NCBI GenBank assembly: GCA_963669155.1 | Contig: OZ022597.1 | Coordinates: forward strand, 4,242,029 to 4,306,028 | DNA length: 64,000 bases | Direction of reading: 5' to 3' | Origin: Arbacia lixula | Taxonomy: Eukaryota; Echinodermata; Echinoidea; Arbacioida; Arbaciidae | Part shown: in pieces, positions 3,611 through 59,699 of the stretch | Layout of the letters: each line of letters opens with the position of its first letter | Position numbering within the stretch: the stretch's first letter is position 1 | Program-made: the position numbers and the translations under genes | The notes under the pieces: model-generated | Database searches by the model: none | Told to the model about the DNA's origin: nothing | The model's input: the letters and a program-made list of their open reading frames with translations, nothing else

Positions 3611-3804
3611 CTGTGTAGGCAATTCCATTTCTGACTCGGGGTGGAGGTTGGCCTCGCTGAGATGCAGGCCCATGATGAAAGGGAGCGGGGCGTCGAGGAA
3701 GTACAGCATGGAGGCTGGCAGAATGGGGACGTAGGCATAAGGCCACTGGAAGGGGAAGATCAGAGCTGTGATACACTCTGCTACCTGCATCAACCGCTGG
3801 TAAT
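3611..3804 (-). CDS. DENND5: DENND5 exon 4
   Basis: Encodes residues 337-401, from DYQRLMQ through VPILPASMLYFLDAPLPF and IMGLH to MELPTQ, in the cDENN core. The acceptor is TCTCCCAG|ATTACC and the donor CAG|GTATGT. It enters at phase 1, matching exon 3, and leaves at phase 0. Its 5' edge seeds the tandem array at 3741-4845. Confidence 0.95.
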
Positions 3805-4845
3805 CTGGGAGATAGAGAGAAGGAAAGTTAATCATGATACAACTTATGATTTGATTCAAGTATACAGCCACTGGAAGGGAAAGATAAGGGCTGTGATGCA
3901 CACTGCCACCTGCATCAACCGCTGGTAATCTGGCAGATGGAGAGAAGGAAAGTTCATCGTGATGCAACGTATGATTTGATTCAAGTATACAGCCACTGGA
4001 AGGGGAAGATCAGAGCTGTGATACACTCTGCTACCTGCATCAACTACTGGTAATGTATGAGATGGAGAGAAGGAAAGTTCATCGTGATGCAACGTATGAT
4101 TTGATTCAAGTATACAGCCACTGGAAAGGGAAGATCAGAGCTGTGATACACTCTGCTACCTGCATCAACCGCTGGTGATCTGTGAGATGGAGAGAAGGAA
4201 AGTTAATCAAGATGCAACATGATTTGATTCAAGTATACAGCCACGGGAAGGGGAAGATGAAGGCTGTGATACACTCTGCTACCTGCATCAACTACTGGTA
4301 ATGTATGAGATGGAGAGAAGGAAAGTTCATCGTGATGCAACGTATGATTTGATTCAAGTATACAGCCACTGGAAGGGGAAGATCAGAGCTGTGATACACT
4401 CTGCTACCTGCATCAACTACTGGTAATGTATTAGATGGAGAGAAGGAAAGTTCATCGTGATGCAATGTATGATTTGATTCAAGTATACAGCCACTGGTAG
4501 AGATAAGAGCTGTGATACACTCTGCTACCTGCATCAACCACTGGTAATCTGGGAGATGGAGAGAAGGAAAGTTAATCATGATACAACGTATGATTTGATT
4601 CAAGTATACAGCCACTGGTAGGGAAGATAAGAGCTGTGATGCACTCTGCTACCTGCATCAACCGCTGGTAGTCTGGGAGATAGAGAGAAGGAAAGTTCAT
4701 CAAGATGCAACATATGATTTGATGCAAGTATACAGCCATTGGTAGAAGGAGATAAGGTCTGTGATGCAATCTGCTACCTGCATCAACCGCTGGTAGTCCG
4801 GGAGATGGTGAGAAGGAAATTCCATCATAATGCAAGTTTATCCGG
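3741..4845 (-). repeat. Exon-edge array A: copies of DENND5 exon-4 acceptor
   Basis: Nine units of about 125 bp: the true exon edge plus eight copies. Minus-strand copies begin near 3861, 3986, 4111, 4234, 4359, 4484, 4605 and 4729. Each carries intron-3 sequence, the acceptor region and about 63 exon bases (21 residues, DYQRLMQ through FPFQW). After FPFQW each copy runs into intron sequence and, where I read it, reaches a TGA within a few codons. Decoy acceptors keep AG at exon starts 3929, 4179, 4548 and 4672. The AG is lost in the other four. Confidence 0.92.
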
Positions 4846-22283: not shown

Positions 22284-22925
22284 AAATGCAGATAAAAGGG
22301 TGGCCTATTTACAAAAGTCATGAAACTCAGCAAGAATCAGCAGTATACCCTAATGATAACGTGTGTGAAATCTTAGTCATAGCCTCAAGAACCTTTTCAG
22401 GAAAAATGAAAGACTCTTGATGTGTACGTTTGAAACCTAGCAGCCGTAGTCTACAAATGCAGATAAAAGGGTGGCCTATTTACAAAAGTCATGAAACTCA
22501 GCAAGAATCAGCAGTATACCCTAATGATAACGTGTGTGAAATCTTAGTCATAGCCTCAAGAACCTTTTCAGGAAAAATGAAAGACTCTTGATGTGTACGT
22601 TTGAAACCTAGCAGCCGTAGTCTACAAGGTATTGCCCGTCAGTGCACCATGGGCCACACACTGCGGGCATGCTCCCATTAAACGCATCCACTGTGGCGCG
22701 GACCACAGCACACAGTAGTCTCTAGTCTCGAGGCTATAGGATTCGGCCGACCAGCCAAAAACCTCCTCACAATCTAGCGAACACTATAATTTCACATACA
22801 GTCAGTTTTCGGTTCAATTATTAGGAGGGTAGTTTTAGGAGGGAAGTTCTGAAACAGTATCTTCTTCCATTTTCTGTGGTTTTTACCTAAAACAATTGAC
22901 CTGCAAAAGGGACACCCTGTCTGTC
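22284..22925. mobile_element. Dispersed repeat with a perfect 171 bp tandem duplication
   Basis: Bases 22284-22454 and 22455-22625 appear identical by eye (GATAAAAGGGTGGCCTATTT to CAGCCGTAGTCTACAA). The rest, through AGGGACACCCTGTCTG near 22910, matches pieces at 30640-30870 and 48105-48575, with shorter pieces near 24905-25050 and 63500-63600. Noncoding. Confidence 0.75.
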
Positions 22926-42974: not shown

Positions 42975-44208
42975 TGTTATTTTTTGTCTTTTTTTTTTTT
43001 TTTTTCTTTCAAATGATCTTTATTCATATTCCAATCACAAAATCATAATAACATCGAATATTGATTTTCTTTTACATATATAAATCAACTTAATTAAACA
43101 AAATCCAGTAACTCATTTGGAAGACTGTACAAAGCTTTACCAGTACAAATTCTATTTACCTCTAACCTCTTTCGTATCTCGGATTTAAATAAATATTTCA
43201 GTCTAGAATTTCTGTAATCGGTACCCTTATAATTTCGTAGTATTATCAACTTATAAATGCTCCAAAAAGCTATTGTCATAAATTCATCTAATTCAACAAA
43301 ATCTGAAGTTTTTATAAGAAGTCCAATATTAATGTCAACACGTAAGTGAAAAACCTTCTCAGTCAGCCAAATAATATAATCCCAAAACTTTCTATTCAAT
43401 TTACAAGTTATTAATGCATGTGTTAAATCTTCATCTACTTGACATGTTGTGCATTTAGCATCTTCACCCAAATTCCATTTACATAAATTCCTCTTTACTG
43501 GCAAAAGATTATATAACACTTTGAAATTAAATTCTCGCAATTTGTTATCCTTTACTCGTGCTAAATTTCGTTCAAAACATGCTTTGTGGAAAAACTTAGC
43601 GAACTATTGGCTAGATGAATTAGGGGGTTTAGATTTATTATTAAATAGTGATTTTACAGTATATAATGTTCAATCTATGTGTAATCAGAACATGCCTTTG
43701 TTTTATGTGGAAATAATTCAAGCTTGGGCATCAATTGACAAGCAGTTACTTAAAAAGAATTTACCGGTGGAAAAGAATATTTTATGGCACAATCAACATG
43801 TTATCTTTAATAAGAAATCACTGTTTTTTAAAGAGTGGTTTGATAGCGGTATTATGCGTTTTGAAGATATTTTGACCGATGGAAGATTCAAATCGGTAGA
43901 GGAAATAACCAGAGTTTTGAAATCTAGAAAGAGTAAAGGAAGAGCGATTTTTGATTATGCAAAATTACGTCAGGCTGTACCAAAAATCTGGTTTACGCAA
44001 ATAGTAATTAATAGGAATGAGAATGTTTTACCCCTGACTGTTCCGAAAATGAAAATAGGAAAATCTATGAGGGGATTAAGTGAGATAACATCAAAATATT
44101 TTTATCATCTGTTGATGTTGCAAGAAGGGGTATATACACGCTGTTGCTTCTTTTGGGAAAATTTGGTAAACATAAATATAACATGGGCAAAATGTTATTT
44201 TTTGTCTT
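42975..44208 (-). mobile_element. Twin-primed, 5'-truncated LINE insertion with 16 bp TSD
   Basis: A non-LTR retrotransposon fragment. The 3' part is on the minus strand (about 43555 down to 42991): a frame with a zf-RVT-like domain (CTTCQ...H...C in KCTTCQVDEDLTHALITCKL), stop at 43094, AATAAA at 43024-43019 and a poly(A) tract at 43005-42991. The preceding element segment is inverted on the plus strand (about 43556-44192): an open frame with PLFYVEIIQAWASI and AVPKIWFTQI, typical of the region just before zf-RVT in L1-type ORF2. The flanks are identical, TGTTATTTTTTGTCTT, at 42975-42990 and 44193-44208. Both coding parts are uninterrupted, so the insertion is probably young. No RT core or endonuclease is present, so it cannot move by itself. 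Confidence 0.92.
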
Positions 44209-44687
44209 GCTATCATATTTAGTGACGTTTTTGTGTAATTATTGCCTACATATATGAAAGGCCTATAAAACTTTGCTAAATTAATTTTTTATAACTTTTT
44301 CATGTCTTCTACATACATGTACATTCAACTGAAACACCTAATATAATCGTTATTGTCCTTAAAATTTGATTGAACTGTCTCTTTGTTTTGTTTGGATGAT
44401 CATGAAGGTAAAAATAAATATTTTTAATTCAATTCCGGGCTGCGTCTTTCGGATTATCCCAATCAACTATCTTTGTTCTTCAAATATTACTAGTACGTAG
44501 GCCCAAACTCATCGTACGAGTAGAAGATTCAGAGAATATTGAAACCATATTATGACACTGCCCAGACGTTGATGTCTAACACATGACACAGGTCGGCCGA
44601 TTTTGCTAGAACATCACTCCCGAGCCCTGGCCTGCACATCGAACAAATAGGTCGACTGCCATCTATCGTCTGCTTCTGTAAAGGGAT

Positions 44688-44700
44688 TTCCCGAACATTC
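44688..44700 (+). promoter_or_regulatory. Perfect heat-shock element
   Basis: TTCCCGAACATTC is an exact TTCnnGAAnnTTC three-unit HSF1 site. It lies 47 bp before the CDC37 start codon. Because the transcription start is unknown it could be in the proximal promoter or the 5' UTR. Confidence 0.6.
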
Positions 44701-44746
44701 ATTGCATGACCGGATCTTCAGGACAAGGAACAATTCTCGTCTAAAA

Positions 44747-44779
44747 ATGGTTGATTACAGCAAATGGGATCACATTGAG
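44747..44779 (+). CDS. CDC37: CDC37 exon 1 (start)
   Basis: Eleven codons, MVDYSKWDHIE, then the donor GAG|GTATGT. Phase 0. This is the invariant CDC37 N-terminus. Confidence 0.96.
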
Positions 44780-45386
44780 GTATGTATTTGCTAAAGTGTA
44801 TATTGATACAAATAAAAGTTATATGTTGATTGGTGTATGAATAAGGCAAACAATCATAAATGCGTTTATTCTTTATTATAAGGGCAGCGATACATATTCA
44901 CGGACCCACCCGTCCAGAGAATTGTGAACGATGTATGGGCTTACTCGATACTCTACGGAGTGTAGCTCGTGTACCGCCCGGGCCTAGCGGGGCCGCAAGC
45001 TGGGCAATGGACTACAGTATTAATGGAATATGGGGAGCCAATACCCCCCCCCCCCCCCCCCCCCCCCACAATTTGAGATCCCCGAGCGAGTGCACAGCAG
45101 GAATTTTGCAGAAAACAAGACTTTCTGGTCGGCCTGTAATTTTGACATTTACAGAATACTGTTAATTTTTGTAGGGCCTAGCTTAAAATTTCAAAAGACG
45201 ATATTGGTGAAACTTTTTTTTTTTGACTCGCAATTGCGTAGCTTGACCGAAACTGTTGTGCCGATGGTGATTCTGTAGTCTCACGTGTGATACGCTTGCC
45301 GTTGTGCTCTAATATGCATTTTTGCCAGTGCGTCGATGAAGGAGACCGTGGTGCATGGTGAGAATGGGCCACTAACCATACATGTA

Positions 45387-45670
45387 CACAACAGCTCCAA
45401 GGAATTGGCATAAGAAATGGGAAAGGGAAGAAAGGGAAGGAGCCGCAGGGGGGCGTAACCCTCTGATGGTTGGCAGGGCAGCCACATGGAAGGCAGCTGG
45501 TGAGGTGGCCACGACTGCAAGTTGGGGTAGTTGGTTCCAACACGATGCTTTAGCCTAAAAACCATCGTGTTTCATGCCGAACTGGACAAAATATACCGCA
45601 GTTCAAAACTGCTGCTCTTTCCCTTTCTTCCCTTTCCCTTTTCCTATGCCAATTCATATAAGCTGTAGTG
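45387..45670. mobile_element. TA-flanked foldback MITE (CACTACAG family), copy with insert
   Basis: Arms start CACAACAGCTCCAAGGAATT and end AAGCTGTAGTG, flanked by TA. A segment of about 100 bp (around 45450-45545) interrupts the left arm. It is in CDC37 intron 1. Confidence 0.8.
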
Positions 45671-45981
45671 TAGTTTAGCAAGTGCAGGTATTTATGTATG
45701 GCGTGCAAGTAAGAAGTGGCTTTAAACCTGATCGTTTATTTGTATTACTAATGGGCTTTGCTGATCGAATACGATGTAGCATCAAATGCGATTTAATTTC
45801 TAATACAGGGTTTAGTATACAGAAATGGAAATATTTGGTGTGGGCTCTGGGTAGTTAACCTGATCATGCAAAAGCTTCATATAGCTATTTGCACATTTAT
45901 GGCTTTTGAAGACGACCCTAGGATGTCAGGCTAAAGAGTAAGCTATTTTTTTCTTCATTCCCTCCCTGTATGAAACGGAAG

Positions 45982-46115
45982 GTGTCTGATGATGAGGATG
46001 ACACCCACCCTAACATTGACACACCAAGCCTGTTCCGCTGGCGCCACCAGGCCCGGGTGGATCGCATGGAGGAGCAGAAGCAGGAGCGGGCGGAAATGGA
46101 GCAAGGAACCACCAA
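45982..46115 (+). CDS. CDC37: CDC37 exon 2
   Basis: 134 nt, phase 0 in and 2 out. Encodes [20 protein letters not shown] and [20 protein letters not shown] to QGTT. The acceptor is ACGGAAG|GTGTCT; the donor ACCAA|GTAATA is weak but forced by phase with exon 3. Confidence 0.95.
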
Positions 46116-46172
46116 GTAATAGAAGGAGAAAGGAGAGATACTCTCTCCTTTTACATGAAACAAAGAAATCTA

Positions 46173-46806
46173 TTTAAAGGGTTACTAAATTAGAATAATT
46201 GGGTCCCACTAATTTATGTAAAATTATCCACTAAAAACAAATTTCACATTTTGTTTGCCTGTAACATAGATTCATTTTGACGAAAAATTTGAAAAAACAC
46301 TCACCTCCAAGTGACGTCAGAGGAGTCAAATGCCATAAAAAGACTCCGCTGTTAAAATTAGATGGTACGGAAGTCAACAATAGACCATTTTCATAATGTA
46401 TTCACAACTTTCCCCCTAACTGCGAAGTAACACATTATTGCATTCACCTGTATCTTGTCATTCAGATTCAGTGGATGGAATCCACTTTGAATCTATTAGT
46501 TGTTGTTACTCGGACAATCCTCGGACAAGCTTTGGGGTTCCTATCGGTAAGGTATTGTTTGAATTGCATGACATACATACATGATGAAAAAAAGTCTATT
46601 AGAAATTATTGTTGACTTCCGTACAATTTAACAGCGGAGTCTTTTATGGCATTTGACTCCTCTGACATCACTTGGACTTGTGCATTTTTTCAAATTTTCG
46701 TCAAAATGAGACTTTATTGCGGCAAACAAATGTGAAGTTCGTTTTTAGTGGATAATTTTACTTAAATTAGTGGGAACTTATTTTTCTAATTTAGTAACCA
46801 TTTAAG
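46173..46806. mobile_element. 630 bp palindromic element in CDC37 intron 2
   Basis: The left arm AGGGTTACTAAATTAGAATA and an inverted right arm pair over about 200 bp, including the shared words GACTCCGCTGTTAAAATT and TTGACTCCTCTGA in complement. TTTAA lies at both ends (46173-46177 and 46800-46805 region). The loop is about 200 bp. Noncoding. Confidence 0.85.
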
Positions 46807-47186
46807 GGTCACAACATATGCAATCTCGATAAATTGGTTGTTTTTATGCTAAGTTTACTTTTTCGTTCATATCTCATGTGAGCTGAGCAAGGAGCCACCA
46901 AGAAATGGCAGGAGAAACTGATTGTTTCTAGGAGTTGAAAGCTTTCAAAACATGTTTTTTTTGGTCCTTTTGTTATGTAACTCACATGAGAGAAATTTGA
47001 TCTTGGTACATGTCTGCAGAGCAATCTATTGTATGGTAATTGGTAACCCTCGTTCATTTCAGTCATGTTACATGTAGCATGACTCGATGAACTTCTGTGA
47101 TGTGTTACTGTCAAGCAAACTGCATTTTGAATTAGGTCTTACTTTGGCTCTATTTTTATGTTGTTTTGGTGATGTTCTTTTCACAG

Positions 47187-47250
47187 GGTCAAGAATGCCA
47201 TTGAAGACACAAGACAGCTCTTGGAGAATTTAAAGACCAAAGGAGATGAG
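47187..47250 (+). CDS. CDC37: CDC37 exon 3
   Basis: 64 nt. One base completes Lys; the exon then reads VKNAIEDTRQLLENLKTKGD plus E. Acceptor TTTTCACAG|GGTC, donor GAG|GTAAAG. Helical, part of the N-terminal coiled coil; sequence is variable in this family. Confidence 0.92.
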
Positions 47251-47328
47251 GTAAAGTGAACAGTAGAGGGAGGCAGATAATGTCACGCCCCGCTCTGACT
47301 ACATTACACTGGGGCTCAAAGCGGTTTA

Positions 47329-47600
47329 AGGGATAGTCCACCGTAACATTCAGTTGGTTTTAATAAAAGCAGAAAGATAAAAGAAACATATGAGTGAAGG
47401 TTTGATGAAAATTTGTCAAAAGATAAGAAAGTTATGATTGTGTAAATTTTTGATTTTGTGACGTCACTTACGAGGTGCTCTCCCATATGTTATGTACTAC
47501 TTTTTCCATAAGTTGCCTTCTTTCTGTTCTTTGAAACAAGTGTAACTTTCTTATCCTTTGACAGATTTTCACCAAAACTTCACTAATATGTTTCTGCATA
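47329..47600. mobile_element. Dispersed MITE-like element
   Basis: Starts TAAGGGATAGTCCACC. The two halves hold inverted relatives of AAAGATAAGAAAGTTATGA, and TGACGTCACTT lies in the middle. A related right half is at about 59700-59862, where it ends GGTGGTCAATCCCTTTAA. It is in CDC37 intron 3. Confidence 0.65.
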
Positions 47601-48104
47601 TGATGCACCACATGTTACCCCGGGGTACCACGTTGTGTAGCGCCATCTCGTGTCCACTCGAGTGCAATGCAGTGCGTGTTAGTAGCACAGAACTATAGTT
47701 CACTGGTACAGTGGTACAACTCGTAGCACTGATCTCTATACTGTACATTCTGGAGCCTGTATTCTCCTCATTCTTGCCATGACAGAAAGTAAAAGATAAT
47801 ACCACTTCATGATGTGATATTCATTTTCATGCAGAAGTTGTAAAACAATGTGGAAGAGAATATTTAACATAACAAACTTAAGATGAGACCAGCACAAAAA
47901 GAAGGATATTGAATGGTGATAAAAATGTCTTCCTTCTGCAGAGGAGAAACATAGGCTAGGTAGATAAATAGGCAAATCAAAGAGTTGGTTGTGTTTTTAT
48001 TTGGCAGTTCAAGGAAGATCAAATTCTGCTATTTTGGTCGAACAGCCACAACAAAGTCCTGATTTTTTTGTGCCACTTTCACGCTGGAAAAACAACACAT
48101 TTAA

Positions 48105-48575
48105 AGAGAGGGTGTCCCATTAGCAAAGGTCATGAAACTTGGCGGGAATCAGCAGTATACCCTTATGATAACATGTCTTAAATCTCATAGTTATAGCCTC
48201 ACCAACCTTTTCAGGAAAAAAATCGGAAAACATTTTATGAAACTTAGCGGCCCTAGTCTACTTTCACAATGTTATTGCCCCTGTCAAAGCGCGATGCGCT
48301 GTGCACTGCGGGCATGCTCCCATTGAACGCATGCACTGTGGTGCGGATCATAGCGCACAGTGGTCTCCTGTCTGTAGGCTACAAAAAACGGGAGGTTTCG
48401 GATGACCCACCCAAAACCTCTTCAAAATCTAGCGATGGATGTATTGCTGCTTAAATGTAGTTGCTAGGTCGTTAATTAAGGAGGGTAGTTTTTAAACAGT
48501 ATTGTCCCCCATTTTCTGTGTTTTTTCACAAAATGTTATTGTTCTGACATGTTAGAGAGCTACCCCGTCTTTAAT
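48105..48575. mobile_element. Relative of the 22284 dispersed repeat
   Basis: Shares AATCAGCAGTATACCC, CCTTTTCAGGAAAAA, GCGGGCATGCTCCCAT and GACCCACCCAAAACCTC with the elements near 22284 and 30640. It lies in CDC37 intron 3. Confidence 0.7.
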
Positions 48576-48623
48576 GCAACTATTCCATTTTCGCCATGAC
48601 GATTTCTCTTCTTATCCGTTCAG

Positions 48624-48719
48624 GAAGGAGCAAAGAAAGCCGCCCAAAAACTCAAGGAATTGGAGGATGACGAGAAGAAATGGAGAGCTAAGGAAGCTGA
48701 AATAGAGAAGAAGGAGAAG
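48624..48719 (+). CDS. CDC37: CDC37 exon 4
   Basis: 96 nt, phase 0 to 0, 32 codons: EGAKKAAQKLKELEDDEKKW and RAKEAEIEKKEK. A highly charged coiled coil. Acceptor TTCAG|GAAGGA, donor AAG|GTAAGG. Confidence 0.95.
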
Positions 48720-48753
48720 GTAAGGGAGGCAGGTGCAGAAAGCTAACAACATA

Positions 48754-48983
48754 CACTACAGCTCAAAGAAATTAGCATAGGGAAAGGGAAAGCGAAGAAA
48801 GGGAAGGAGCCGCAGTTTTAAACCGCAGTATATTTTGTCCAGTTCAGCATGAAACGTGATGCTTTAGCCTAAAAACATCATGTTTCATGTTGAACTGGAC
48901 AAAATATACCGCGGTTCAAAACTGAGGCTCCTTCCCTTTCTTCCCTTTCCCTTTCCCTATGCCAATTCCTTTGAGCTGTAGTG
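48754..48983. mobile_element. TA-flanked foldback MITE (CACTACAG family), copy
   Basis: 230 bp with paired arms CACTACAGCTCAAAG ... CTTTGAGCTGTAGTG, TA on both sides. It starts 35 bp after the exon-4 donor of CDC37. Confidence 0.87.
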
Positions 48984-49335
48984 TAGATAGAGAGAACATA
49001 GATTATTTCTGCCCTACTATGACAAAAGGAAGCAAGTGACAAATAACTCAAATTTGAGTTGTAGGTATTCTTAAATTTTACCCAACACTCCCTACATACA
49101 GACAAAATCTGGAGGAGAAACATTCATCTTACTGGGAGGTATTCAATCTAACATGGTGTGGTGTTGCGCTGATGTCAATGCAAGTGACACATTTTGCTAA
49201 TTTACTACAAAAAAAAAAATCTTTTGTTAGTTTATTTGTCTGCGTGAATCAATGTGTCTGATATTTGTCTTTCATGACCTCGTGCTTGGAAAGTAGCCAA
49301 GACTCATGAATGCGTTCCCAGAATTTCATTTCCTT

Positions 49336-49925
49336 GAACGGACATTGCCCGCCTTGCAACTTACACCTTGGAATGTAATGCACACTGTGGAATATAATGT
49401 GCACTGTGATTTAATGTGCTTGTTTTATCATGATATCATGTTTGAAAAGTAGCCACTACAAATAAATGTGACCCTGGTGTTTGCCTCATTGAACAGACAT
49501 TGACCACCCTTGCAGCTTACACCAGGAATATAATGTGCACCGTGATTTAATGTGCTTGTTTCATAATATCATGTTTCAAAAGTAGCCACTACTGATAAAT
49601 GTGACCCTGGTGTTTGCCTCATTGAACGGACATTGTCCACCTTGCAGCTTACACCGTGGAACATAATGTACACCGTGATTTGATGTGCTTGTTTCATGAT
49701 ATCATATTTGAAAAGTAGCCACTTGTAGCCAAATGTAACCCCAGTGTTTTTCTCATTGAACGGACATTGTCCACCTTGCAGCTTACATCGTGGAATATAA
49801 TGTGCACCGTGATTTAATGTGCTTGTTTCATGATATCATGTTTGAAAAGTAGCCACTACTAATAAATGTAACCCCGGTGTTTGCCTCATTGAACGGACAT
49901 TTTCAACCATGCAGCTTACACCATG
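49336..49925 (+). repeat. Exon-edge array B: copies of CDC37 exon-5 acceptor
   Basis: Five units beginning GAACGGACATT at 49336, 49491, 49624, 49758 and 49891 (spacing 155, 133, 134, 133). The last is the true acceptor. Each unit includes the 3' intron end, CAG, and about 15 exon bases (CTTACACCxTGGAAT), then about 110 bp ending with TTTGCCTCATT. Decoy exon starts with AG intact are 49515, 49648 and 49782; the first copy has CAA. All three intact decoys reach an in-frame stop within 6-12 codons. Confidence 0.92.
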
Positions 49926-50028
49926 GAATGTGGACACACTGAGCAAGCCTGGCTTTGAGAAGACGATGATCAACAAATACGAGAAGACAGATGAGGAGCT
50001 GACGGAGGAGGAGAGAGAGGAGAAGATG
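49915..50028 (+). CDS. CDC37: CDC37 exon 5
   Basis: 114 nt, 38 codons, phase 0 to 0: LTPWNVDTLSKPGFEKTMIN then KYEKTDEELTEEEREEKM. PWNVDTLS is a hallmark of CDC37. Acceptor CCATGCAG|CTTACA, donor ATG|GTGAGT. Confidence 0.97.
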
Positions 50029-50329
50029 GTGAGTAAAAAAGGATAGAATTCTGTATCTATGGGCGCATTAATCAACTATTTAAACCGGTAGTAAGAATTT
50101 GTGCTTCAATACTTGATTCTATCATGCCGCGTTTATAGAGCTGCCAAGTTTCCCTGCTTTCAAAGGAGACTTCCTGAAAATAGACCAAAATTACTGCGTT
50201 TCATCACATCACACAATCTCCCTGATGATTGATAGATTATTGGCATCAGGTTTTATGTATTTGATAGACATCTCCCTGATTTGTGCAAATTTCTGCAAAT
50301 TTCAATGTTGGTATCTTTGCATTGATCAA

Positions 50330-50995
50330 CTCTCAGATATGCGATTCTGGCTTGCCTTTTAAAATGCCAAGGCAGATTACGAAATAAAGCCCTGTTGCGT
50401 TTATCAAATGTTAAGATTACCCTGAATCATGTTTGATAAAGCTGATTATGAGGTAGAAAAAAGCTTACAGATACATGTCATCACTGGGCCGATACAAATG
50501 AATGTGCGCGTTTTGCATAGGGCGCTAAATTCACACCAGTTACTATGGTTTAGACCTCAGTATATTGAAGTAATCTGCTTAAACTGTGGTCGACATCTAA
50601 AACTCCTTTGTGAATCCGGACATTGTTGTAATAGACTGATTTCAGAATGGGCCGATCCAGTGCACATCGCAGTGCGCAGTTTGATCCAGGAAGTGTAGGT
50701 CAACTTTTACACACGCGTTTTCTGACTTCAAAGTGGGCTGCTTGACTCGCACCGGAAGGAGGCTAACACAATGACGTCATAGACTCATGATTCAAAACAT
50801 GGTTGCGTTCAAGCGACCTTTTTCGAACATGATTCTGCAGGAACGCGTTTCCAAATGCCCCTTTTTTTCCACGTTTCCTGTGTTTTGAATGACATTTATA
50901 TTCAATTTTGTCCGAACGCAATCGTGATTCTGCAGAAATGCGTTTTGAATCATGATTCTAGGGCAAAAAATGTTGGATGAACACAACCTGCGATG
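50330..50995. mobile_element. Inverted relative of the 20970-21530 element
   Basis: The same AATCATGATTC, TCTGCAGAAATGCG and GACGTCATAGA words appear in reverse order and orientation. It lies just before the exon-6 acceptor of CDC37. Confidence 0.7.
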
Positions 50996-51023
50996 ATTCT
51001 TTTCTTGACATTCCAATTTCCAG

Positions 51024-51182
51024 GAGAAGTTTGTGAAGAAGAATGAGAAGCTGATCAAGGAGTTTGGGATGTACAAGAAATACCAGGACGCTGAGCGGTT
51101 CCTCATTGATAACCCTAACCTGGTCTGTGAAGAAACAGCCAACTACCTTGCCATCTGGTGTATCAACCTAGAAGTAGAGGAG
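51024..51182 (+). CDS. CDC37: CDC37 exon 6
   Basis: 159 nt, 53 codons, phase 0 to 0. It reads EKFVKKNEKLIKEFGMYKKY, then QDAERFLIDNPNLVCEETAN and YLAIWCINLEVEE. This is the start of the Hsp90-binding middle domain. Acceptor TTTCCAG|GAGAAG, donor GAG|GTAGGT. Confidence 0.97.
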
Positions 51183-51908
51183 GTAGGTGGTCTTTCAACC
51201 AAAGCTTTTTCAGTTTGGCGTTAAAGATCATTTTTCCCATATTTCCCATTGAAATAGCATCACACAAACCAAAACATCATTACCCAGTGATTTTGAAGGA
51301 CCACAGAGAAAGCAAAACTCAACATAGGTATCTAATGATATTTAGTATTGGAGGCAACATACATGCTTACACCCTTTATGCAAACACACACATGCAGACT
51401 TATTCAATACACCTGCACAGAAGATAAGGAGATAACAAAGAGAGAAAGGAAAAGAGAAAGAGAGAGTGAGAGAGAGAGAGAGGTAACACATAAATCGAAA
51501 GAAAATCTTTAAAAAGACTGGAAGAACATAAAGTTTTTAAGCAGGACACAAGCTGTTTAAGGACAGATCTAAATCTGGAGAGAGTCGAGCTTGAAGCAAC
51601 ACTGTTGTTGTAAAAAAATATTGTTCATGTGTGTAGTGTCTCTCTGCCACATGCATTCAGTAACTTCAACAGTTGGGTGACTTAAAACCCGGGTTAATAT
51701 GTTTTTGATCTTTTTATTACACTTATGTTTCTTTAAGTCCATGAATTCTTTAAAAAAAACTGTTTTAAAGATGAAATCAATCTCATTTTCATTGTAGGCA
51801 AGTCAAAATTTCCTCCAAACTTTGCTAAAAAATAGCTCAGCTCTTTTACCCAACTTTTCAAAGCACATACTCACTACGGGTGGGTCAGTTTATTGGATTT
51901 TTTTTTAA

Positions 51909-52265
51909 GGGAATATACTGTACTGGGAAGACAAAAAAGCCTTCAAAGGGTGATCGAGAGCAATCTTCTTGCCAATGGTCTTAAATTTATGTATTGTCCA
52001 TTTTAGAAACTTGCTGAGAGTTATTTGTCCTCAAATGATCCACATTTAGAGTAATCAGTGATTAAATCACAAATCCTCAAAATGTTTGGCCGAAAAATTT
52101 GTTCGGCATGATTTAATCACTGATTACTCCAAATGTGGATCATTTGAGGACAAATAACTTTCAGGAAGTTTCTAAAATGGACAATACATGAATTTAAGAC
52201 CATTGATGAGAAGATTGCTCATGATCACCTTTTGAAGGCTTTTTCCTTCCCAGTACAGTATGCCC
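51909..52265. mobile_element. Palindromic MITE, GGGNATA family, copy 4
   Basis: About 357 bp, full two-arm copy in CDC37 intron 6, flanked by TTTAA. The centre differs slightly (TTTGGCCGAAAAATTTGTTC). Confidence 0.85.
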
Positions 52266-52611
52266 TTTAAAGGGAAGGGGTAGTAATGGTAAATAGCACA
52301 AAGATTGTATTCAATGAAGTGTCTCTGCCGTGACCATGAGCTGTTTCCTTGTTTGATTTTAGTAAACCCAGAAGGGTCTCATCTCAAAATGATGAAATTG
52401 TTGAACAAAATTTGGACCCAGTTTTGCTGGCAGAATAGTTTTGGCATGATTGCTGCCCTTGATGATAACCAATGCTACCACTTACCTTTAAAGCCACCAT
52501 AGACGGCATGGTCGTACGGTCTGTGACTGGAAAATGTGATGTCAGCTTTCTGTACAAATCCAATGACGCGGTCCTGTGATTCAGCCAGTCTCAGAGTGGT
52601 CTGCTCTGGCC

Positions 52612-53095
52612 TTTAAAGATTGTCCGTCCCTTTTGCAAGCTTAAAATTTGAAATCGTCTATCACGATCGTAAATTGAAGAAAGTGTGATTCAAGACCATT
52701 TCAGCCGTTAAATTTCAAACCGACTTTTTTCGTACTACAAAAAAAGTATTAGTCTTTGTTACAGTATCTATGTGGTTATTATGCATGTGTGAAATCCGAA
52801 TTTTATGAGTAATTACCAAACTTTGGAGATGATTCCTTCTATAGAACAATTATTTTCGTAATGTGTTTTATAATTTAATAAACAGATTAATCAATTAAGC
52901 AAATATTTCAACACAAACTACTAAGAGCCTGAGGTTAAGACTATTAATCAGACATTGTTTACGTGCATTATTTGAATTTTACACTATGTATCAGTTTCAA
53001 ATTATGAATATGCATCTTGCTAACACTTCTCTATATGTTTTGCTAATGTTTCAATGGTTTTGTGGTGATCGGAAAAAGGGACGGGCTATCTTTAA
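52612..53095. mobile_element. Element with TTTAAAGATTGTCCGTCCC ends, copy 2 (inverted)
   Basis: Reverse-complement relative of 32120-32653, about 480 bp. It starts TTTAAAGATTGTCCGTCCCT and ends GGGACGGGCTATCTTTAA. It lies 50 bp before CDC37 exon 7. Confidence 0.82.
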
Positions 53096-53144
53096 GACAT
53101 GCTAATATTTGTCCCTTCTATTTTTTTTCTCTTTCACCTCCCAG

Positions 53145-53260
53145 AAAAGTGGGCTGATGGACCAGGTGGCCCATCAGACCATCATCATGCAGTACCTGCT
53201 AGAGCTGGCTAAGAGCATGGATAGGGACCCACGCTCATGCATCAGACCATTCTTTGCCAA
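53145..53260 (+). CDS. CDC37: CDC37 exon 7
   Basis: 116 nt, phase 0 in and 2 out. It reads KSGLMDQVAHQTIIMQYLLE then LAKSMDRDPRSCIRPFFA plus AA. Matches the conserved QVAHQTIVMQFILELAKS block of the Hsp90-binding domain. Acceptor CCTCCCAG|AAAAGT, donor GCCAA|GTGAGT. The 3' 40-45 bases are the seed of the donor array that follows. Confidence 0.97.
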
Positions 53261-54235
53261 GTGAGTACAGGGAAGGAGAGAGGGTGGGGTGGAGTGAGGG
53301 GTAGGAGGAGGGGAGAGGAGGGGGGGGGGAGGAGGTGGTGGGTGGGTTAAATGGACAGGGACCCCCGCTCATGCATCAGACCATTCTTTGCCAAGTGAGT
53401 ACAGGGAAGGAGAGGGGGTGGGGTGGGATGAGGGGGAGGAGGAGGGGAGAGGAGGGGGGGAGGAGGAGGTGGTGGGTGGGTTAAATGGACAGGGACCCCC
53501 GCTCATGCATCAGACCATTCTTTGCCAAGTGAGTACAGTGGTGGAGAGGGGATGGTGTGGGGTGAGGTGAGGGGGGAGGAGGGGAGAGGAGGAGGGGGGG
53601 GAGGAGGTGGTGGGAGGTTGAGGGACAGGGACCCCCGCTCATGCATCAGACCATTCTTTGCCAAGTGAGTACAGGGAAGGAGAGGGGGTGGGGTGGAGTG
53701 AGGGGGAGGAGGAGGGGAGGGGGGGGGGGGGGAGGGAGAGGGTTATGGACAGGGACCCACGCTCATGCATCAGACCATTCTTTGCCAAGTGAGTACAGGG
53801 AAGGAGAGGGGGTGGGGTGGGGTGGGGTGAGGGGGAGGAGGAGGGGAGAGGAGGGGAGGAGGAGGAGGTGGTGAGAGGGTTATGGATAGGGACCCCCGCT
53901 CATGCATCAGACCATTCTTTGCCAAGTGAGTACAGGGGAGGAGAGGGGGTGGGGTGGAGTGAGGTGAGGGGGGAGGAGGGGAGAGGGGGGGGGGGTGTGG
54001 ATTGTGGGAGGTTGAGGGACAGGGACCCCCGCTCATGCATCAGACCATTCTTTGCCAAGTGAGTACAGGGGAGGAGAGGGGGTGGGGTGGAGTGAGGTGA
54101 GGGGGGAGGAGGGGAGAGGGGGGGGGGTGTGGATTGTGGGAGGTTGAGGGACAGGGACCCCCGCTCATGCATCAGACCATTCTTTGCCAAGTGAGTACAG
54201 GGAAGGAGAAGGGGTGGGGGGAGGGGGAGAGGGTG
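53216..54235 (+). repeat. Exon-edge array C: eight copies of CDC37 exon-7 donor
   Basis: Units of about 134 bp carry 40-45 exon bases (ACAGGGACCCCCGCTCATGC to TTTGCCAA), the donor GTGAGTACAG, and a G-rich spacer. Donor GT positions are 53261 (true), 53395, 53529, 53665, 53789, 53926, 54059 and 54191. All eight copies keep TTTGCCAAGTGAGTACAG unchanged, while the spacers vary. If the first donor is skipped, the frame reads AAG TGA and stops at once. Confidence 0.96.
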
Positions 54236-55080
54236 TTCTCCAATCCTAGGATGGATGACATAGGGGCATATCAAGATGCGTATGACGATGATATTTAACA
54301 ATAATCAACTCTTTCTCCAATGCTAGGATGGATAAGGCAGAAAGATATAAAGGGTGTATCAAGATGCGTTTGACAGTGGTAATAACAATGCTTGCTGTAT
54401 GTTTTCTCCAATGCTAGGATGGATAAGGCAGAAAGATATAAAGGGTGTATCAAGATGCGTTTGACAATGGTCATAACAATGCTTGCTGTATGTTTTCTCC
54501 AACGCTAGGATGGATAAGGCAGAAAGACATAAAGGGTGTATCAAGATGCGTTTGACAATGGTAATAACAATGCTTGCTGTATGTTTTCTCCAATGCTAGG
54601 ATGGATAAGGCAGAGAGACATATAGGGTGTATCAAGATGCGTTTGACAATGGTAATAACAATGCTTGCTGTATGTTTTCTCCAATGCTAGGATGGATAAG
54701 GCAGAGAGACATAAAGGGTGTATCAAGATGCGTTTGACAATGGTAATAACAATGATTGCTGTATGTTTTCTCCAATGCTAGGATGGATAAGGCAGAAAGA
54801 CATAAAGGGTGTATCAAGATGCGTTTGACAATGGTCATACAATGCTTGCTGTATGTTTTCTCCAATGCTAGGATGGATAAGGCAGAGAGACATAAAGGGT
54901 GTATCAAGATGCGTTTGACAATGGTAATAACAATGATTGCTGTATGTTTTCTCCAATGATAGGATGGATAAGGCAGAGAGACATATAGGGTGTATCAAGA
55001 TGCGTTTGACAATGGTAATAACAATGATTGCTGTATGTTTTCTCCAATGCTAGGATGGATAAGGCAGAGAGACAGTATCA
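54236..55080 (+). repeat. Exon-edge array D: ten copies of CDC37 exon-8 acceptor
   Basis: Units of 91 bp (first spacing 77, one of 90) carry TTTCTCCAATGCTAG and then exon-like GATGGATAAGGCAGA. Possible exon starts are 54250, 54327, 54418, 54509, 54600, 54691, 54782, 54872, 54963 and 55054 (true). Most decoys differ from the true exon by about 8 extra bases after GAGAGACA (TAAAGGGT or TATAGGGT). Because 91 is 1+3x30, a decoy read in the CDC37 frame stops at the TAG of the next copy's acceptor. Confidence 0.96.
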
Positions 55081-55174
55081 AGATGCGTTTGATGATGAGC
55101 TGAGGTCCTTCAAGGAGCGTGTCAAGGACCGGGCCAAGGCCAGGATAGAGAGAGCTTACAAGGAGGCTGAGGAG
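55054..55174 (+). CDS. CDC37: CDC37 exon 8
   Basis: 121 nt. One base completes Lys; then MDKAERQYQDAFDDELRSFK and ERVKDRAKARIERAYKEAEE. Equivalent to human KTADRQYMEGFNDELEAFKE. Acceptor CAATGCTAG|GATGG, donor GAG|GTACAT. Only this last array copy encodes the conserved QYQDAFDDEL. Confidence 0.96.
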
Positions 55175-55238
55175 GTACATTAACCAACATCTAATACAAT
55201 CTCCATTAACGGTAGCCTGTAAGAAAAGAGAGCGGCTA

Positions 55239-55475
55239 TACAGGGAAACCCGTTATAACAAGCACAGGTATAGCAAGACATTATTACGAGGACATTTCTT
55301 GGGTCCTGATTTTTTCTTCCATAGACCTCTGTGTATTGTGTTTTCATATAACGAGATCGGCTATAGTGAAATTTCTGCTATAGCAAGGCAAATTCCCAAC
55401 CCAAGAATAAAGAAAAAGAAAAGAAATGTACCCGTTACTACGGTCCCGAACCCCTCGTTGTCACGGGTTTGCCTA
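55239..55475. mobile_element. TA-flanked MITE-like element
   Basis: Starts CAGGGAAACCCGTTATAAC after TA. The right end ACGGGTTTGCCTA is an inverted near-match. Internal words TATAGCAAG and TATAACGAG recur. It is in CDC37 intron 8. Confidence 0.55.
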
Positions 55476-55758
55476 GAATGGACAAAGCATAATATTCGGT
55501 TTTGAGAAAATAATCTTTGATAATTGATTGAGCTTTCTTTTTTTTGTATCACGAAAATAGTCAAATCTCAGTGTAAACTAGTTAGATTTTCATCTATTCT
55601 ACGGGAGCTGCATGTATAGTACCTCTGACCTTACAATTTCGCATTTGGTATCCCAAAGATACGTGCTAAATTTGTGCAAACTTTCATGAAGTTTGCAGAT
55701 GTTTGTAAAAGGGACGCGCCATCTTTAAGTTAACCCGCTCATTCCCATAGTAGATACT

Positions 55759-56281
55759 CTGCATTGTAATTGACATGGGACTATCATTGCATGGTATACG
55801 GAGGGGATTAAAGGGTATGGGGTACTGCATTGTAATTGACATGGGACTATCATTGCATGGTATATGGAGGGGATTAAAGGAAAGGGGGTACTGCATTGTA
55901 ATTGACATGGGACTATCATTGCATGGTATAAGGAGGGGATTAAAGGGTATGGGGTACTGCATTGTAATTGACATGGGACTATCATTGCATGGTATATGGA
56001 GGGGATTAAAGGAAAGGGGGTACTGCATTGTAATTGACATGGGACTATCATTGCGTGGTACGAAGGAGATTAAAGGAAAGGGGGTACTGCATTGTAATTG
56101 ACATGGGACTATCATTGCATGGTATATGGAGGGGATTAAAGGAAAGGGGGTACTGCATTGTAATTGACATGGGACTATCATTGCGTGGTACGAAGGAGAT
56201 TAAAGGAAAGGGGGTACTGCATTGTAATTGACATGGGACTATCATTGCATGGTATATGGAGGGGATTAAAGGAAAGGGGGT
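55759..56281. repeat. 64/66 bp satellite-like array in CDC37 intron 8
   Basis: Eight units start CTGCATTGTAATTGACATGG at 55759, 55825, 55891, 55957, 56023, 56087, 56153 and 56217. Unit variants alternate (GTATACGG or GTACGAAGG against GTATATGG), which suggests growth by dimers of about 130 bp. The 66 bp period keeps frames open on both strands, but there is no gene. Confidence 0.93.
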
Positions 56282-56284
56282 TGT

Positions 56285-56600
56285 AGTGGGAAGCCCAAAA
56301 TGATGCGAGGGTACAGCTTAGCCTACACCAACTCAGGGATTAGTCACAGCCCTCCACTCATCCCTCTCCAGCTGTAAGGCCTTCAGCTCTCCTGTATCGC
56401 TGAGACCAACACTCCATTGCAATGTGTCCATGGTCGTGCCTCGTTTCAGACCCTCCTGGCAGATCTGGCTCCCACAGCTTCTGGATGGGGAATGCAATGG
56501 TCTACCAGAGCTATCCTCCTCTCCCTGCTCGTATCTGCGATGTGTGGGAGGGCTTCTTTTAAAAGTTGATGTTCCTGATTTGGTCACTCCAGGAGACATT
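56285..56600 (-). pseudogene. Possible LINE tail fragment
   Basis: A minus-strand frame ends LQLERDEWRAVTNP, which resembles the last residues of LINE reverse-transcriptase proteins. The rest (Ser/Arg-rich) is not diagnostic. Low certainty. Confidence 0.3.
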
Positions 56601-57519
56601 CAGAGAGCTAGAGTTCTGTCCAATTCTTTCTTCTTCTTCTTTTCATGCGATATATTCATATTGGCTCAACAGATTTGCTTCATACATGCATGTATATAAT
56701 TTATAAAAACAGTGAACTGTGTCAAGTTGGGGTCAAATCGGGTAGAGGTCATAGGTCAATGAACTTTGTAAACAATTGCCCAAAATGTCTGTCTTGAAAC
56801 CTTTTAGGCAATATCTTAAGATCGGTTTGACAGATTCGCTTCAACTTGATACTTACATGGAATTTATAATAAGACCAATTTAATGTGTACAAATTGGGTT
56901 TAAATTGGATAAAGGTCAAAGGTCAATGGACTTTGCCCAAAATGCCAAAATTTGAAATTTGCTATGTATCACATTAAATCCAGCCGTCCTCTTCCACCTG
57001 AATATACTACAAAAACAGACCATGAATGGAGGTTAACAAGTGACATGTTTGTAATAAATCCCTGAAAGATCAAAGGTCATGGAACTTAGTCAATAATTGC
57101 CAAAATAGCCCAAAATGTGATCTTTCTCAAAAAATCTAGAAATATATCCATTTTCAACCAAACTTGATTCAGTGTATTATTACAAGGGTCAAAGTCCTTA
57201 GAGGTCGAAGGCCAATAAATCAGTGGTCCAATTTCTACCAAACACACAAGTTTTCTGAGCAAACACTGTAGATGAGTACACGTATCAATTCAAATTCAAA
57301 AATATTTATCAACTGCGTGGCAGTCGAATTGCTCAAGTTTTGACTTTAAAAAGAGTTATCCTGTCTTTAATGAGTTAATAAGGCACATCTCATCACTATT
57401 ACAAATACTATGCATGGCTGTATGGGACAAACAATGCTATCTATGAAGGGTTTTAAGGCTTATAATGCCATTAAGTTCTGGATGTAGATGCCCTCTCTCC
57501 CTCTTCTCCCCTCACCCCC

Positions 57520-57665
57520 CTCTCCTCTGAGCTGTACTCGGCAAAGAATGGTCTGATGCAGGATCGTAGTTCCTTCCCCCCCCACCCCCCACCCCTCTCC
57601 TCTGAGCTGTACTCACTTGGTAAAGAATGGTCTGATGCAGGAGCGAGGGTCCCCATCCCTCTCCC
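57520..57665 (-). repeat. Two antisense copies of the CDC37 exon-7 donor unit
   Basis: The reverse complements of 57526-57575 and 57600-57660 read CATCAGACCATTCTTTGCCG and CATCAGACCATTCTTTACCA. The second continues with AAGTGAGTACAG, the donor itself; the first lacks four bases of it. The flanks are also array-C-like G-rich sequence in complement. They lie in intron 8, 3.3-4.4 kb downstream of array C. Confidence 0.92.
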
Positions 57666-57865
57666 TCCTCCTATCCCTTCCACTCTCTCCCTCCCCCACC
57701 CCACCCCTCTCTTCCCCCTGACACCAGTGTTCCTGAATCCCCTGCGATACTTAAAGAAGTCTTGAGATAAATATTCTGAAGGTTTTGTTGCCCTTAAAAA
57801 CACAAGATGCAACATGACATATTATCTGTTTGTCTTACTATGTTTTCTTTTCTTGAATCCCATAG

Positions 57866-57943
57866 GAGATGGAGCAGGAGAGACAGGCGAGACTAGGACC
57901 AGGTGGGCTAGATCCGGTGGAAGTCTTTGAATCATTACCACCG
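57866..57943 (+). CDS. CDC37: CDC37 exon 9
   Basis: 78 nt, 26 codons, phase 0 to 0: EMEQERQARLGPGGLDPVEV then FESLPP. RLGPGGLDPVEVxESLP is diagnostic. Acceptor ATCCCATAG|GAGATG, donor CCG|GTAGGT. Confidence 0.97.
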
Positions 57944-58282
57944 GTAGGTCATTGTGCTACCCCTTTTTATCTATGCTCACCATTTTTATCTTCTTTGTTC
58001 CCATCTCCACATATGATTTTCTTGTTCTTCTTTGTATTTTTCATATTGTAATATATCTCTGCTTGTTTTATTCTTTCGTTACCTTCTGTGTTGAACACTG
58101 TTTTGTTCACTCTTGAACTCTAAGTGTTTTGCTGAAAAATAAGGAACAGATTGGCAATGATTTCGAGAGAAGTCAGAGAAGTCAGACGAAGTCAGAGGGT
58201 TTTGAGATTCATGATGACAAGTCTGGAATCCTATCATTTTGACATTGTGACATTATCTGGCTATTTTCTCTCAACCCTCCAG

Positions 58283-58552
58283 GAGATGCAAGCATGCTTT
58301 GAGTCCAAGAGCATCGGGCTATTGCAGGAGACGGTTGCCAAGATGAAGCCGGAGGACGCCTCCTACCACATGAAGCGCTGTGTTGAGTCAGGGCTCTGGG
58401 TGCCTGGGGGTGGTGAGGCGGGGAGCTCCCCTGATGGCCTGGAAGGTGCGACCAGCGACGAGGCCGCAGCAGGGGACCAGAAAGACGAGGAGGAGGTTTA
58501 CGAAGAGATCGACGATAACCCTCCGACCACAGATCTGGACCATGTGGATTAG
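58283..58552 (+). CDS. CDC37: CDC37 exon 10 (stop)
   Basis: 270 nt including TAG. Starts EMQACFESKSIGLLQETVAK, then MKPEDASYHMKRCVESGLWV and PGGG. The acidic tail is longer than in human and ends DLDHVD. Acceptor ACCCTCCAG|GAGATG. The upstream in-frame start near 58151 lies in the intron and is not used. Confidence 0.97.
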   Translation, partial: EMQACFESKSIGLLQETVAKMKPEDASYHMKRCVESGLWVPGGGEAGSSPDGLEGATSDEAAAGDQKDEEEVYEEIDDNPPTTDLDHVD

Positions 58553-59699
58553 CCGTTATGTGCCGGCCGTGTGGTACGGACTGGGACGTTGTATGAAACG
58601 TGTTGATGCGGAGACTTATGAAAAAGCCTGTTTGGAGTTGCGACAGGCACATCGGGGCTTGTCCCAATTGACCATGGGTCATTCATGTCACTCCTGGAGT
58701 AAATGAAATGTTATGCAGTAAAATGTGATGTATACCCTGCAAGTGTGAACCAACAGTGAGAGAACCTTGTCCCACGTATGCCCGATGGTGTTGTCATATG
58801 GGTATCAGATAACATGGTTCTACTGCATTCTAGCAGGTTGTAGTTGAGTGGCCTGTCTCACTGTACCTCCCTGTGGCTTACTAAACTGGGATTTTGAATA
58901 CATACAATGTTGTTCATGATATATACGATGGTTTCGAGGATGAAATACAGGAATTGTCCTTTACTCTTTTCTGTTCCAGGGTTTTATTTTGAGACTGGTA
59001 ATATACTCAATTCCCATAAGGCAGGCTTTGGACTGGCACAAGGAATTTTTACTCTTTCTGAGCGTATACAGTGTAGTAGTGTCAAACAGGTAAATTCTCG
59101 CGTGAGCATTTATTTTCATGTTTTGTTTTTTTGCGCAACATAGTGCCAGTGTAAATTCAATATAACATGCTATTTTTGGATGGCTACATGGAGACTCGCA
59201 TGTCTATCGATGTATCCCTTTACCATCAATGAGTGCAGCGTTATATACCATTGACCATCACGTTCATGATAATGCTCTGTGCGGGGCTTAACTGATGATT
59301 TGAATGCAAATGGGGGATTTTTCTGTAGTGAGATATAGTTCTTGTGTACAAAAGTAACTCCCTGCGAATATGTTGTGGGTATGGTGTGCCGCAAAAATGT
59401 ACTTCCTCGAAAATGACTGGTTTTTACATTACAATTCAGGCATTTATGTTAGTTGAGGAATGGGGGTGGGGGTGATTACCTGTTCATCATCCCCCTCTCC
59501 CCCCCCCCTCCCCACACACACACTAACTCTCTCTTAGTAGATGATATATGCCTGTCTAAACGTCTGATGCATTATTTTATGCATTATTTTACCTGTGCAT
59601 TTGATGCATAATTAGAAACATGTTTTTGCACACATCCCCTAAGAACAAATATCCCTTCAACAAAAACAGAAAGAGCAATGTATTAAATCATACAGCACA
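58553..59699 (+). other. CDC37 3' UTR and downstream sequence
   Basis: No gene seen. The first few hundred bases should be 3' UTR. A C-rich run is at about 59491-59520. Confidence 0.5.

Follow-up and report, generated by a model that had tools for sequence, protein, structure and literature searches.

Tandem copies of exon–intron boundaries fill intron 7 of a sea-urchin CDC37 gene, with probable use of the outermost splice sites

How can a single splice junction be chosen in an intron that offers eight donors followed by ten acceptors? This question is raised by the CDC37 gene of the sea urchin Arbacia lixula, in a window of 64,000 nucleotides (the whole stretch of DNA analysed here). The coding part of the gene occupies positions 44747–58552 of the + strand, as judged by spliced translation, by Pfam and by its nearest proteins, which are those of sea urchins. 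According to the spliced translation of the window, 10 coding exons encode 394 residues, and Pfam places the CDC37_N, CDC37_M and CDC37_C domains in the product. The closest CDC37 proteins are from Lytechinus pictus (80%) and Diadema antillarum (82%), and the identity is 56–64% to the listed sea stars and 63% to amphioxus. Intron 7, which is 1,793 nt long, separates exon 7 (53145–53260, + strand), with the outermost donor at its end, from exon 8 (55054–55174, + strand), with the outermost acceptor at its start; both exons were placed by spliced translation and alignment to relatives.

The 5′ part of the intron is formed by a donor array (53217–54237, + strand) of eight units of about 134 bp, the last of which is shortened. 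Each unit consists of 45 bp of exon-like sequence, the donor motif GTGAGT (boundary CCAA/GTGAGTACAG) and a G-rich tract, so that the whole array is 52% G and contains 69 runs of at least three G. Tandem Repeats Finder describes it as period 134 with 7.6 copies at 53217–54223. The sequence TTTGCCAAGTGAGTACAG occurs in eight exact copies on the + strand, one per donor of the intron; allowing up to three mismatches adds one match, on the − strand at 57607–57624, where shuffled sequences give an expectation of 0.11. Donor 1 (53261–53262, + strand), the outermost, is the site that is probably used according to the spliced translation, and the seven decoy donors between 53395 and 54192 (+ strand) start at 53395, 53529, 53665, 53789, 53926, 54059 and 54191.

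The donor units abut an acceptor array (54238–55053, + strand), and nothing else recognisable separates the two, in agreement with the earlier note, which had seen almost nothing else in this intron. The acceptor units of about 91 bp comprise a branch-point-like motif, a short pyrimidine tract, TAG and an exon-like start of approximately 39 bp (Tandem Repeats Finder: period 91, 8.4 copies, 54312–55074), and ATAAC is present at most 60 nt upstream in seven of the ten acceptors. The exon-like starts of the nine decoys (54250–54965, + strand) are at 54250, 54327, 54418, 54509, 54600, 54691, 54782, 54872 and 54963, and that of the outermost acceptor is at 55054; the ten acceptors, like the eight donors, lie exactly where the earlier note had put them. 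The first acceptor, 54250, is probably weak because it is preceded by a G-rich tract and lacks a branch-point-like motif. Only 59 nt separate it from the innermost donor. The tandem unit of either array thus includes the edge of an exon, a splice site and part of the intron, with the spare copies on the intron side and the true exon joined to the outer copy. A search for structured RNA found no Rfam family at gathering score within 44000–59500.

We spliced all 80 donor–acceptor pairs of this intron in silico and translated the products. Full-length protein of 394 residues is obtained from one pair only, 53261–55054, as had been claimed from the sequence at the outset. The predicted AAG TGA ends the frame after 239 residues in all 70 pairs with donors 2–8. 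Donor 1 combined with the nine decoy acceptors likewise leads to stops, after 254–297 residues, and six of the nine stop at residue 268 in the TAG of the next unit, the outcome that had been described as usual. In each of the 79 failing pairs the early stop precedes the last junction by over 50 nt. The outermost junction, FFAK/MDKAERQ, aligns without gaps to CDC37 of nine relatives and is therefore the conserved one.

Stops at positions typical for nonsense-mediated decay, in 79 of 80 pairs, would be compatible with a copy-number dial, in which a steady share of transcripts uses decoys, hits a stop and is degraded, so that longer arrays lower CDC37. Early stops, however, are the usual outcome of retained intron sequence, and we regard such a dial as unlikely on the evidence that follows.

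Exon definition is expected where exons are short and introns long. With coding exons of 33–270 nt and introns of 339–2,691 nt, it is therefore the expected mode for CDC37. The true exons 7 and 8 measure 116 and 121 nt, and use of the decoys would need much longer ones, namely 250–1,046 nt for exon 7 with a decoy donor and 212–925 nt for exon 8 with a decoy acceptor; exon definition would consequently lead to the outermost pair. Judging from these sequence features, it is likely that intron 7 carries two boundary-spanning minisatellites (“mirages”, a term used for amphioxus) and that its outermost donor and acceptor are selected by exon definition. The same mRNA would result from nested splicing, in which inner pairs are excised first and donor 1 is joined to acceptor 10 last. 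The geometry would permit this, as all donors precede all acceptors and inner excision spares the outer sites, but the innermost pair is so closely spaced, and its acceptor so poorly equipped for want of a branch-point-like motif, that we give nested splicing little credence.

A search of the 607-Mb assembly located CDC37 exons on two contigs only, the one that holds the window (C22) and a 20.9-kb contig, C280. Outside the arrays the two align over long stretches with approximately 91–98% identity. C280 lacks exon 1; 19 of 384 codons, stop included, differ from the window, 14 of them silently, and the frame is intact. Intron 7 of C280 has 14 donors and 2 acceptors, compared to 8 and 10 in the window. 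The exact 18-mer is found in 13 of its 14 donors, the last being GTAAAT. Again, one of the 28 possible pairs, the outermost, yields the full protein, and 27 stop early, which would also suit a dial, as would the strongly different copy numbers. C280 is likely the other haplotype of CDC37, although it could be a recent duplicate instead. Certain unit subtypes were seen in one of the two versions only, and exon 7 shows a silent C/A variant that recurs among the decoys in both. These observations suggest, at the level of sequence, expansion of the arrays within haplotypes together with exchange between exon and decoys. At the junction of the donor and acceptor arrays in C280 we observed the telomere-like sequence GGGGTTAGGGTTAGGGTTA (L010:2416-2434), which gives the impression of a healed break.

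Similar structures occur elsewhere in the window. Upstream of CDC37 exon 5 there is an acceptor array (49340–49930, + strand) with four decoys, compared to three in C280, and in each version the first decoy has AA for AG. An acceptor array with eight decoys, four of them with intact AG (3742–4835, − strand), belongs to an exon of a neighbouring gene that codes for part of a DENN domain (PF02141). CDC37 intron 8 harbours a pair of diverged donor units in inverted orientation (57515–57658, − strand); no counterpart of their donor part was found in C280. The same intron contains a purely intronic 66-bp array (55759–56281) of 8 copies, whose counterpart in C280 has about 3. Elsewhere in the window, at 22284–22627, a 171-bp segment is duplicated perfectly.

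Is such an arrangement peculiar to CDC37? We sampled 70 exons from three gene families that were not chosen at random (30 myosin head, 20 TCP1 and 20 kinesin), approximating exon ends by match ends; as L064 and L067 are versions of one exon, the sample comprises 69 distinct exons with 138 distinct boundaries. Boundary-spanning copies were found at 11 of the 140 sampled boundaries, 10 by probe and one (L068) on reading. Seven belong to myosin (L043, L053, L056, L060, L061, L068 and L070), one to TCP1 (L083, with 12 acceptor copies once extended) and three to kinesin (L097, L105 and L106). Three of these, L043, L060 and L068, are degenerate or have two to three copies and were accepted on reading; L043 is doubtful for want of a clear true donor. 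Arrays lying wholly in the intron beside an exon (L065, L080, L100, L101 and L102) were left uncounted, and two further TCP1 exons showed no boundary array. Among 30 protein-kinase loci none had an array at the match end; these loci were kept out of the count, since those with the highest scores are for the most part long open frames and apparently intronless. The resulting figure of about 8% of boundaries is an estimate of a genome-scale frequency with a wide error, resting as it does on some 70 exons of three families in a non-random sample.

Contigs C29 and C3 carry versions of one myosin gene, with 91–94% identity over long stretches of L064/L067. In donor array L070 we counted six donors on C29; the C3 version has seven, one of its decoys reading GC rather than GT. 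L068 has two copies on either contig. The surmise that copy number varies is thus borne out between the versions of two genes (8/10 versus 14/2 in CDC37, 6 versus 7 in myosin). The presence of this myosin gene in two versions, on C29 and at 16.58–16.60 Mb of C3, indicates that other unplaced contigs may be haplotigs as well and useful for comparing array lengths. Contig C142 was considered as a possible second haplotype of the TCP1 gene that carries the 12-copy acceptor array, but its sequence there belongs to a different TCP1 gene and the idea was rejected. In the kinesin locus L114/L106 (C21) six of seven acceptor units contain GGTGCTGGTAAGAC, P-loop codons that resemble a donor, and such units could therefore act as small exons.

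These comparisons also bear on whether the arrays might stem from faulty assembly or from haplotypes collapsed into one. Tandem arrays are known to mislead assemblers, but those of CDC37 are present on two contigs with unlike copy numbers and distinct unit subtypes, the myosin array is likewise found on two contigs, and arrays of this kind exist at other loci. We consider an artefact very improbable.

Are exon boundaries preferred targets of such duplications? Counting non-coding bases in arrays of period at least 45 and at least 1.8 copies, the coverage is 6.2% in the myosin loci and 8.4% in the kinesin and TCP1 loci; the window has 7.3%, and the kinase loci have 1.9%. Uniform placement of 24 arrays predicts 8.7 boundary-spanning ones, compared to 8 observed (2.65 expected versus 4 for myosin; 6.1 versus 4 for kinesin and TCP1), and on this account we make no claim of targeting. 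A two-sided probe test was positive at 10 of 140 boundaries, 89 of 557 intron positions and 1 of 70 exon middles. In a one-sided test of the myosin loci the counts were 6/58 for boundaries versus 8/162 (p 0.21), and 6/58 versus 5/162 (p 0.04) once boundary-anchored arrays were removed; this is possibly a mild and uncertain boundary excess, which would hint at some targeting. Exon boundaries, being struck about as often as intron sequence, tolerate arrays and are not clearly targeted. The direction, on the other hand, is non-random: in the cases that were read, spare copies are located towards the intron and the outer copy has the intact exon, as would be expected if selection removes copies inside exons.

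The fate of the decoys provides a further argument about their use. Across the arrays scored, GT is intact in 31 of 32 decoy donors (including four of L105) and AG in 40 of 47 decoy acceptors, three of the four decoys of CDC37 exon 5 in the window being included. Bases of the decoy AG are changed in 7 of 94 cases, compared to 10.6–13.0% in the pyrimidine, intron and exon-like flanks, a comparison that is weak because it involves only seven changed bases and because decoys within an array share ancestry and are not independent. Since the AG changes at about the rate of its surroundings, nothing indicates that the spare sites are either preserved as a dial or eliminated as harmful; at the level of sequence this speaks mildly against conserved regulatory use and equally mildly against strong harm.

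The earlier note had left two readings side by side, robust use of the outermost sites and steady decay with copy number as a dial. The former fits what was found: the junction is gap-free in nine relatives, exons are short and introns long, the frames are intact with both 8/10 and 14/2 sites, and spare sites change about as much as their flanks. The latter gained no positive support, as comparable arrays sit at boundaries of unrelated genes and the spare sites, small as the numbers are, appear neither maintained nor purged. Because the arrays recur at other exon edges, they look more like side products of DNA duplication that the cell tolerates than like a regulator specific to one gene.

We therefore return to two minisatellites and an outermost junction, for which the following mutational route is inferred. 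One tandem duplication would have copied the exon end, the donor and the head of the intron, and a second one the intron tail, the acceptor and the exon start. The duplicates would come to lie inside the intron, with the outer copy still joined to the true exon, and slippage or unequal exchange would then lengthen each array. Provided that the outermost donor and acceptor are paired, presumably through exon definition, the protein would remain unchanged, since the outer copy is intact.

The closest known counterparts are the amphioxus “mirages”, minisatellite-like tandem duplications of exon–intron boundaries that are described, in passages of two reports (PMC3087553, PMC3902484), for Adh3, the globins BflGb6 and BflGb9, troponin C and PGBD5, and that reportedly do not interfere with regular splicing. 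The latter is suggested by RT-PCR and by data on Adh3 (PMC3087553), and the Adh3 mirage shows somatic length instability, as cited in the same paper. The CDC37 arrays share enough features to be regarded as a variant of mirages: units span the boundary at its 5′ or 3′ side, unit lengths are similar (60–175 bp in the sea-urchin arrays, 10–160 bp in amphioxus), and AG/GT is kept in many but not all units. Haplotypes of BflGb6 have 6 and 3 copies; a corresponding difference would hold for CDC37 (8/10 versus 14/2) and for myosin (6 versus 7) if C280 and C29 are other haplotypes, as their sequence comparisons support. The arrays differ in that the host is a sea urchin and not a lancelet, in that arrays occupy both ends of one intron with almost nothing else inside, in their higher copy number (8+10 and 14+2) and in frequency, about 8% of sampled boundaries compared to a handful of amphioxus genes named in those passages. 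Intron gain through tandem duplication of AG/GT proto-splice sites is also discussed in PMC3087553. The CDC37 arrays, too, presumably arose by tandem duplication across splice signals and could be raw material for introns in that sense; unlike in intron gain as presented there, an existing intron is lengthened and no new intron position is seen.

The nearest human case known to us, from its title, is G1P3/IFI6. There a minisatellite reportedly gives multiple splice donors in an interferon-induced transcript, the repeated unit supplying donors at one exon end as in CDC37; only one end of the intron is said to be involved, unlike in CDC37 intron 7. Moreover, that title has the donors provided to the transcript, whereas the inner donors of CDC37 are known from the genome sequence. 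The literature searched yielded boundary arrays of amphioxus; no sea-urchin boundary arrays were apparent in its titles and abstract openings, and its journal coverage was partial.

Work on how the spliceosome selects one of several identical sites usually relies on engineered duplications. CDC37 intron 7 provides such a choice naturally: its donors are identical and its acceptors nearly so, the long series occupy the two ends of a single intron, and they exist in two copy-number versions. Exon definition (outermost), intron definition (innermost) and nested removal each predict a different outcome for it. Should the sampled frequency hold, the sea-urchin genome does not shield its splice boundaries from the growth of minisatellites, and this would bear on how introns lengthen and arise. 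A broader proposal, which we advance tentatively and would not yet call probable, is that boundary arrays in the sea-urchin lineage are a genome-scale feature, affecting about one boundary in thirteen, so that thousands of introns would carry graded series of competing identical sites. They would be tolerated only because the choice is strictly outermost, and both the contest of exon versus intron definition and the raw material for new introns may be readable from standing variation.
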